Below are positions 8,504 through 10,924 of a DNA stretch of 64,000 nt, in pieces; within the stretch, counting starts at the first letter, position 1; every line of letters begins with the position of its first letter. Under the pieces are notes generated by a model. That model searched no databases. It was not told the origin of the DNA and saw only the letters and a list, made by a program, of their open reading frames with translations. This stretch comes from Klebsiella pneumoniae (GTDB lineage: Bacteria > Pseudomonadota > Gammaproteobacteria > Pseudomonadales > Pseudohongiellaceae), in assembly GCA_945902215.1 (NCBI GenBank), contig CAMDML010000002.1, positions 1 to 64,000 on the forward strand, given 5' to 3'. The translations under genes were made by a program, and so were the position numbers.

Positions 8504-9433
8504 ATGTATCTGGAATTTTTCGGTATGCGTGAGTTGCCATTCACGCTGACGCCGAACACAGATTTTTTCATCGATCTCGACGGCCATCATCAGGCTTTGG
8601 AAGTCATCCAGCTCGCCCTCGAAAGCGGTGAAGGCTTTATCAAAATTACGGGAGAGGTTGGCACTGGGAAAACCCTGCTCTGCCGCCGCTTGCTCAATAC
8701 ACTTAGTGACCAATTTGTTTCCGCTTACATTCCCAACCCCTTTCTGACCCCGGACGGCCTGATGCTCGCGCTTGCCGAGGAATTGAACCTGCCTATATCC
8801 CCGGAAAAAGGCCGCCACCACATTCTGGGCCAGATCAATGCCCAGTTAATGAGCATCAAACAGGCCGGCAAGCAGGTCGTGTTCCTGCTGGATGAAGCAC
8901 AGGCCATGCCCGAGGAAAGCATCGAAGCATTGCGGTTATTGACCAACCTAGAAACCGAATCTGAAAAGCTGTTGCAGGTGGTCTTGTTCGGCCAGCCCGA
9001 ACTAAACGACCTGTTGAACCGTGACTCTTTGCGCCAGCTCAAACAGCGCATCACCTTTTCCTATGTGTTGCCAACGCTCACCGAAGACGAGGTCACAAGC
9101 TACATTAACCACCGCCTGTCACGCTCCGGCTTCCCTGGCGTGAACTTGTTTAGCTCCAAAGCTATTCAGGAAGTGTTCAAGGCCAGCGCAGGCATTCCCC
9201 GCATCATCAATATCCTATGTCACAAGGCCCTGCTGGTTGCCTACGGCCGTGGCGATACCAAGATTACGCATTTGCATGTTGGCCGCGCCGTGGAAGACAC
9301 TGAAGATGCGCGCATCCAGGTAAATTACACGCAAAAGACAAACATAAGTGGCCCCAATTGGCTGACGCTTGTCATGTCTTGCATTGCCGCCAGTGCGCTC
9401 ACTTTATTGATGGTTTACTGGTTGGGCTTGTAA
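8504..9433 (+). CDS. ExeA/MshM-type membrane-tethered ATPase
   Basis: A 309-residue AAA (ExeA/GspA-like) ATPase resembling MshM of the MSHA pilus locus. Walker A is GEVGTGKT (50-57), Walker B is VVFLLDE (about 125-131), and the sensor/arginine region GIPRIINILCHKAL lies near residue 225. A single C-terminal membrane segment (about 286-307) anchors it with the ATPase in the cytoplasm and almost nothing outside. No other msh, exe or gsp gene is nearby. Its partner is the ATPase gene 75 bases downstream. The fold is firm; the name MshM and any role in pilus or secretin assembly are inference. Confidence 0.85.
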   Translation: MYLEFFGMRELPFTLTPNTDFFIDLDGHHQALEVIQLALESGEGFIKITGEVGTGKTLLCRRLLNTLSDQFVSAYIPNPFLTPDGLMLALAEELNLPISPEKGRHHILGQINAQLMSIKQAGKQVVFLLDEAQAMPEESIEALRLLTNLETESEKLLQVVLFGQPELNDLLNRDSLRQLKQRITFSYVLPTLTEDEVTSYINHRLSRSGFPGVNLFSSKAIQEVFKASAGIPRIINILCHKALLVAYGRGDTKITHLHVGRAVEDTEDARIQVNYTQKTNISGPNWLTLVMSCIAASALTLLMVYWLGL

Positions 9434-9508
9434 GCCTGGTGTACTGCCACATCGATGGCGTGGCATGGCACCCCGTAAGTATTACCAAGTAATCTGACTG
9501 GAACCCGC

Positions 9509-10924
9509 ATGTATCTGCGTCTTAGTCCATACCGGGAAATCCTGCAGGGCGTGCTGACCGATCTGGAGGTCAACGAAGGAATCATCAAGATCACGGGCAA
9601 AAGCGGCGCAGGCAAGACCGCGCTCTGTAGTCAGTTGTACCAGGAACTCGAAAGGAAGGGACAGAGTGCCATATTCTTCCTGACCCCTCCCGCCAGTGCG
9701 ACTGGGCTGCAGAACAGCATTCTCGACAGCCTGAAGCTCGGTACATCGGGCAATTTTACCAAGACACTGACAGTCTGGCTGCTTGCGAATATCAAGGAGC
9801 GCAAACCGCTCGTGTTGATTTTTGACGATGCCCAGCACCTCGATCTGCAGGCTCTCGGCGCGATTCGCATGCTCTGCAATATACAGGACGCTTCACGCGC
9901 ACTGATCCGGGTAATTGTCTGTGGAACCGAAGCACTCGATCAGAAGTTTGCCACTACTGCCCTGCGTGCTGTCACCCAGTTCCTGAGTCAGAGTGCCACT
10001 CTGCCTTATCTTTCGCTCGAACAGATGGAGGATTTTTGCCAGGGATATTGGTTGCGGACGGCTCAAGACATGAAGCCAATGAGTCAGAAAATACTTCTGA
10101 AACTTTTCCAGGAAACCCAGGGGCACCCGGGGATACTGCAAGCGCGTTTGAGTCAGGGCACCACTGGAGCGGAGAAACTCGACAGCACGGACGACAATGA
10201 AGCCGGCACTCGCACCAGACCGGGGAGATATCCCGGCCAAAGACCTGGATGGATTCCCGCAATACTGACCATGGCTGGACTGATACTGCTGGGTAGTACA
10301 GGCGGCTATTTGTTCCTGCTTCAGGATAGTAAAGCTGACCTGACCACCGCTGTTGTCATTGTTGAAGAACTGCCGGCCCCGGCAGCAACACCAGAGACCG
10401 AAGTTGTTGAGCGAGGAATTACCGAAATAGTAGCAACCGAAACACTTGTTCAAGAATCAGAAATTCCAGTAGCAGAAGTTACCGAAACTGAAGCAATTGA
10501 AACAACGCAGGCGATTGTGGCTGAAGCGTTGCCGGCGGCGTCTGAACCAGAAGCTGTCGCCATGGCCGAGTTGCCAAAAATCGAAACGTTTATTGCTGCG
10601 TGGACAAACAGTTGGCAAAGTCGGGATGTCGATGCCTATCTTGGTCACTATCACCCGGAGTTCGTGCCGGCGCAGGATGTCGCGCTGAGCGAATGGCAGA
10701 ATCAGCGGCGCCGCGTAATCAGTAATGTCGGCAATATCACTATTACTGTCGAGCCAGTTGAGTACACGGTCGACTTACAGGAAGGCCAGCGTAGCGTCAG
10801 GTTCTGGCTACATTACAGCGCCAACAATTATGCTGATCGTACCCTGAAAGAATTGTTGTTGGTGCCGGTGAACGGCAACTGGCGCATTCTGACAGAAACC
10901 AATATGCGCACCGAACGCGAATGA
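9509..10924 (+). CDS. ATPase with transmembrane anchor and periplasmic NTF2-like (Cds6-type) domain
   Basis: A 471-residue protein with an unusual layout. Residues 1-210 form a shortened ExeA-like ATPase with intact Walker A (GKSGAGKT, 30-37) and Walker B (LVLIFDD, 101-107). A membrane segment covers about 249-270. An acidic Glu/Ala/Thr/Pro-rich linker covers about 281-357. A C-terminal NTF2-like domain (about 358-462; IETFIAAWTNSWQSRDVDAYL, then VISNVGNITI) resembles the Cds6-type domain found in some envelope proteins. The topology puts the ATPase in the cytoplasm and the NTF2-like domain in the periplasm. An in-frame TAA at 9476 excludes any longer start. The function is not known to me. 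Confidence 0.75.
   Translation: MYLRLSPYREILQGVLTDLEVNEGIIKITGKSGAGKTALCSQLYQELERKGQSAIFFLTPPASATGLQNSILDSLKLGTSGNFTKTLTVWLLANIKERKPLVLIFDDAQHLDLQALGAIRMLCNIQDASRALIRVIVCGTEALDQKFATTALRAVTQFLSQSATLPYLSLEQMEDFCQGYWLRTAQDMKPMSQKILLKLFQETQGHPGILQARLSQGTTGAEKLDSTDDNEAGTRTRPGRYPGQRPGWIPAILTMAGLILLGSTGGYLFLLQDSKADLTTAVVIVEELPAPAATPETEVVERGITEIVATETLVQESEIPVAEVTETEAIETTQAIVAEALPAASEPEAVAMAELPKIETFIAAWTNSWQSRDVDAYLGHYHPEFVPAQDVALSEWQNQRRRVISNVGNITITVEPVEYTVDLQEGQRSVRFWLHYSANNYADRTLKELLLVPVNGNWRILTETNMRTERE

Follow-up and report, generated by a model that had tools for sequence, protein, structure and literature searches.

Genes A and B of the window (the whole 64,000-nucleotide stretch of DNA that was analysed) encode two ATPases of the AAA_22 type, and in our judgement there is about an even chance that their products form a peptidoglycan-anchored, two-subunit AAA complex of the inner membrane, ExeA-like in design, that serves the editing of wall peptides. 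The pair is a variant of a known design rather than a new kind of system. The reading draws on the domain anatomy of the two proteins, on the conservation of a pocket and the loss of catalytic residues in B, and on a pairing observed in synteny, fusion and co-occurrence. A family of membrane ATPases that bear an apparent wall-reading domain and co-occur with trimming enzymes offers a way to test whether ATP in the cytosol is linked to wall editing, and no description of an ATPase-Cds6_C protein was found in the open-access literature.

Table 1. Features of genes A and B, with coordinates given as positions of the window.
Feature	Position	Strand	Description
Gene A, 309 aa	8504..9433	+	MshM/ExeA-type AAA_22 ATPase outside any pilus locus, with C-terminal membrane anchor
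Gene A Walker A	8651..8674	+	GEVGTGKT, residues 50-57
Gene A Walker B	8876..8902	+	VVFLLDEAQ, residues 125-133, with catalytic Glu
Gene A membrane helix	9359..9424	+	Residues about 286-307, from hydropathy
Gene B, 471 aa	9509..10924	+	Degenerate AAA_22 ATPase followed by membrane helix, linker and NTF2 domain
Gene B Walker A	9596..9619	+	GKSGAGKT, residues 30-37, retained
Gene B Walker B	9809..9835	+	LVLIFDDAQ, residues 101-109; Asp107 in place of catalytic Glu
Gene B membrane helix	10256..10318	+	Residues about 250-270, from predicted model and hydropathy
Gene B linker	10322..10579	+	Acidic, Ala/Thr/Pro-rich, predicted disordered
Gene B periplasmic NTF2-like domain	10580..10897	+	Pfam Cds6_C; pocket Y377, F385, R400, K447, E463

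An earlier note on this DNA had described two ExeA/MshM-like ATPases lying together, and both reading frames were found where it had placed them (Table 1), with Pfam AAA_22 matches of 108 bits for A and 68.9 bits for B. Gene A is 73–79% identical across genera and keeps every catalytic motif. Its nearest relatives are the MshM proteins of the MSHA pilus (about 50–55% identity within the family), and the tree puts it next to this family's MSHA proteins, with support of 89/77 only. Despite this closeness in sequence, no MSHA cluster surrounds gene A, which is found next to B in the interval from msrA to pdxJ. Assignment to the XrtA/PEP-CTERM ATPases (TIGR03015) was rejected, with both A (229.5 bits) and B (60.4 bits) scoring below the curated cut-off of 324.5.

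The second protein had been called Walker-intact, which holds for Walker A, the only one of the motifs that it retains, but not for Walker B (DD in place of DE); the protein also lacks the arginine of the finger and that of sensor 2. Among the B-type proteins (n = 13), Walker A is likewise retained; the Walker-B glutamate is gone in 12 of the 13, the QRI arginine is gone in 11 of the 13, and every one of the 12 that cover the sensor-2 position lacks its arginine. Nearly all of 35 A, MSHA and ExeA/DamX-like proteins have the Walker-B acidic pair (DE/EE) together with the arginines of QRI/ERI and sensor 2. The reading of these motifs as active or inactive, and the role given to each arginine, follow what is established for AAA+ proteins. 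Judged by its motifs, B is probably a nucleotide-binding adaptor rather than a motor, and would be without ATPase activity. The proposed coupling of ATP energy across the inner membrane by B itself is unsupported, because in the whole B family the residues needed for hydrolysis have degenerated.

The membrane helix and acidic linker that had been described in B are both present, the linker comprising 86 residues (272–357; 17 E, 2 D, 2 K and 1 R), and in the predicted model the ATPase (about residues 1–215) and the NTF2 domain are confident, whereas the linker is disordered. The B proteins form a single clade with long branches (support 100/99), and between the window and the relative at L047 identity is 79% for A, 39% for the B ATPase and 37% for the B NTF2 domain, a fast divergence of B that could also reflect relaxed constraint.

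The earlier assignment of the C-terminal part of B to the Cds6-type NTF2-like domains stood up to a Pfam profile search, in which residues 358–463 match Cds6_C (PF24125) at 63.8 bits against a cut-off of 27, covering profile positions 2–110 of 111. Modelled alone, this domain reached a pLDDT of 92.4, and the top structural match of the model is Csd6 (Z 16.3), with Bd1075 and Pgp2 likewise among the best matches; unrelated NTF2-like folds gave Z 13–15. A profile of 51 NTF2 domains searched against the PDB recovered Bd1075 (9e-20), Pgp2 (7e-15) and Csd6 (1e-14) as its best sequence matches. These three LD-carboxypeptidases end in a Cds6_C NTF2 domain whose pocket is that of B, but their YkuD catalytic domain is absent from B, which has an ATPase and a membrane helix instead.

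The NTF2 domain of Pgp2 binds peptidoglycan, its pocket residues matter for helical cell shape, and the K307A substitution weakens sacculus pull-down (PMC8038945). With 38 added to the chain number to give native Pgp2 positions (287, the end of the chain, = Q325), residues Y233, F242, K257, K307 and E324 of Pgp2 align, in that order, with the five pocket residues of B listed in Table 1, and all five positions are retained, counting the conservative change of K257 to R400. Across the 51 domains, the K307 and E324 positions hold K and E in 51 of 51, the K257 position is R or K in 51 of 51, the F242 position is F or Y in 50 and the Y233 position is Y in 47, a conservation that is partly built in because the members of this domain family were gathered by profile. 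We strongly infer that B binds peptidoglycan, since the Pgp2 pocket residues are retained and matter in Pgp2, and the conservation of the pocket favours peptidoglycan as the ligand. For Bd1075 it is reported that the NTF2 domain directs the enzyme to the convex face, and that how a protein can be sent to a single lateral side-wall is not known (PMC8938487); the spatial placement of peptidoglycan trimming for cell curvature is the question on which the finding of A and B could bear.

A and B lie on the same strand with 75 bases, and no terminator-like match, between them. As had been noted, the pair is not flanked by a pilus or secretion cluster, since the tested neighbours are all housekeeping genes (NUDIX, HAD, LysR, 5'-nucleotidase, msrA, pdxJ, pgsA, uvrC and murB), with no T2SS genes or exeB among them. 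The msrA-A-(B)-pdxJ locus recurs in relatives. A and B are adjacent in three of these, an adjacency limited to two genera (L047 in G027, L057 in G032, and L060/L061 in G018, split over contigs), and in G001, G004 and G007 gene A stands alone at the msrA-pdxJ locus (L095, L091 and L093) with a B carrying two NTF2 domains elsewhere in the genome (L055, L054 and L048). In G011 (L049), an A-type ATPase with intact motifs is followed in the same chain by a membrane helix and an NTF2 domain, and this domain clusters with the tails of the B proteins from the msrA-A-B-pdxJ locus (support 100/99). The simplest reading of this fusion is that the B ATPase was bypassed and the B tail joined to A, which suggests that the ATPase-like part of B chiefly attaches the tail to A. 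B or the fusion is present in all nine family genomes that have this A, compared with 6 of the 27 that lack it (G009, where only NTF2 fragments were found, was scored as without B). The collection was scanned with gene A, the alignment of the whole B family being too divergent, and the organisms matched at this locus are uncultured gammaproteobacterial MAGs, one of them labelled Pseudomonadales.

The pairing that the earlier note had proposed is supported by synteny, fusion and co-occurrence, and from these we infer physical contact between A and B. The pairing is non-obligatory, because B occurs without this A (in G013, G019, G026, G033 and G035), and several B genomes without this A have only MSHA or DamX-like ATPases. 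Of the two outcomes that the earlier note had named as counting against it, a C-terminal domain outside every NTF2-like family and homologues of B that are never next to an MshM-like gene, neither occurred. B is nonetheless not always beside an MshM-like gene; it stands alone in most relatives, and in two it lies beside a pair of LD-carboxypeptidase and M14 genes.

A reading in which A is an MshM that has outlasted its MSHA pilus locus, while B is a paralogue in decay and the two have no function in common, would fit the closeness of A to the MSHA MshM proteins and the fast evolution of B, several copies of which are frameshifted (the second B of the window genome, L055 and L057). It is nevertheless highly doubtful, given the identity of A across genera with all catalytic motifs present, the conserved NTF2 pocket of B, and an A-tail fusion and co-occurrence that point to function.

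The second B-type gene of the window genome (L043:6512-8810; G000:C52), which has two NTF2 domains, is broken into two overlapping frames, and the B genes at L057:7242-9157 and L060:3986-4264 are frameshifted at one common A-rich run, by sequencing error, decay or perhaps slippage. For the broken B genes as a set, sequencing error or decay is likelier than programmed frameshifting, because the breaks fall at differing positions of the gene and two are at one A-rich run.

PF24125 is patchily distributed (12 of 293 genomes in the order, 19 of 57 relatives and 60 of 369 in the class), and its commonest carrier among the examined loci is a YkuD-NTF2 protein (LDT-NTF2), usually found beside an M14 protein. 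The window genome has such a Csd6-like pair at L044:4155-6371 (G000:C57), on a contig other than that of A and B, in which the M14 protein resembles MpaA (84 of 157 bits, below the cut-off) and has a lipoprotein-like signal. A role of A and B in wall-peptide trimming is suggested because this LD-carboxypeptidase-like protein of the same genome bears the same NTF2 pocket. In two relatives (L045 and L046), B is divergent from an adjoining LDT-NTF2 and M14 pair. Among the family genomes, 11 have both B and LDT-NTF2, three B only, two LDT-NTF2 only and 20 neither, so that LDT-NTF2 is present in 11 of 14 B genomes against 2 of 22 others (Fisher 4e-5, uncorrected for kinship); genera g3, g4 and g6 each include genomes with both and genomes with neither. 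The connection to peptidoglycan that had been suggested earlier gains from the conserved Pgp2 pocket and from the way in which B is linked to, and co-occurs with, genes for LD-carboxypeptidase-NTF2 and M14 proteins. Editing of wall peptides is the likeliest process for A and B to serve, ahead of secretin assembly.

The YkuD-NTF2/M14 pair recurs in many gammaproteobacterial genera, and outside the family a further NTF2 protein, TPR-bearing where tested, often adjoins it.

NTF2-like folds often dimerise. The NTF2 domain of B might therefore be a protein dock, by which B binds the matching domain of the LD-carboxypeptidase-like protein and brings that enzyme to the inner membrane, with or without binding peptidoglycan; CaMKII hubs are among the structural matches, B and LDT-NTF2 co-occur, and TPR-NTF2 proteins adjoin LDT-NTF2 in other families. 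Yet the conserved residues are the pocket ones that matter for peptidoglycan in Pgp2, and G018 and G035 carry B with no LDT-NTF2 found, which leaves a dock quite unlikely.

ExeA is a cytosolic ATPase with one membrane helix and a peptidoglycan-binding domain, and its contact with peptidoglycan drives multimerisation with its partner, ExeB (PMC4098917). Like B, ExeA/GspA joins an AAA_22 ATPase and one membrane helix to a periplasmic domain of the peptidoglycan-binding type, but ExeA is a single competent ATPase, whereas here there are two, of which the degenerate one bears the predicted wall-binding Cds6_C domain. The wall domain differs also, the relative at L158 having a GspA C39-like domain and a sub-cut-off PG_binding_1 match, both absent from B in the Pfam search. 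The DamX-like AAA_22-SPOR proteins (L148) resemble B in carrying ATPase, linker and wall-binding domain in one chain, but have SPOR rather than NTF2 and retain the catalytic residues (EEAQ Walker B). These comparisons suggest that ExeA/DamX-type ATPases can exchange their wall-binding module, with PG_binding_1, SPOR and Cds6_C as the alternatives.

With the ATPase family and overall design in common with ExeA (PMC4098917), A and B might be a GspA/GspB-like (ExeAB-like) factor that passes the secretin of a T2SS or type IV pilus through peptidoglycan, the genes being merely remote from their cluster. The window genome encodes three secretins and six T2SSF domains elsewhere, and no canonical ExeA is seen in it, because A and the two B copies are the strongest AAA_22 matches there. 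However, ExeA/GspA is an assembly ATPase of type II secretion and no secretion genes adjoin A and B, no secretin gene was recognised beside the examined B genes, and GspD-type secretins, over the cut-off in 48 of 57 relatives, are too near universal to discriminate between the rivals and do not track B, whereas LDT-NTF2 does. On balance this reading is unlikely.

In the preferred reading, that of a wall-anchored complex for peptide editing, A would be the competent ATPase, and B a nucleotide-binding, hydrolysis-poor paralogue docked on the cytosolic ring of A, with catalysis and wall grip apparently divided between the two. B would span the membrane once, its flexible acidic linker letting the Csd6/Pgp2-type NTF2 domain grip the sacculus, and with ExeA as the model (PMC4098917) contact with the wall would be tied to the ATP cycle and assembly state of A. 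Such a complex may position or gate the trimming of wall peptides, and so affect cell shape or local opening of the wall. A bolder form, offered tentatively as an improbable extension, is that A shares a mixed ring with a catalytically dead B that grips the wall. The ring would sense the sacculus or travel along it, and would exert spatial control over MpaA-like amidases and over LD-carboxypeptidases with an NTF2 domain, cytosolic ATP thereby driving the control of trimming.

Other architectures with an NTF2-like domain were also seen. A protein of 345 aa at L121:8072-9109, directly beside an LDT-NTF2 gene, has a likely membrane helix and an NTF2 domain with no recognisable P-loop, and may be another B-like protein in decay. 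At L062:3563-5725, L122:6012-7694 and L133:7915-10011 a Cds6_C domain forms the C-terminal part of TolC-type outer-membrane efflux proteins (OEP), and a MORN-repeat protein at L128:5859-6818 also ends in a Cds6_C domain.
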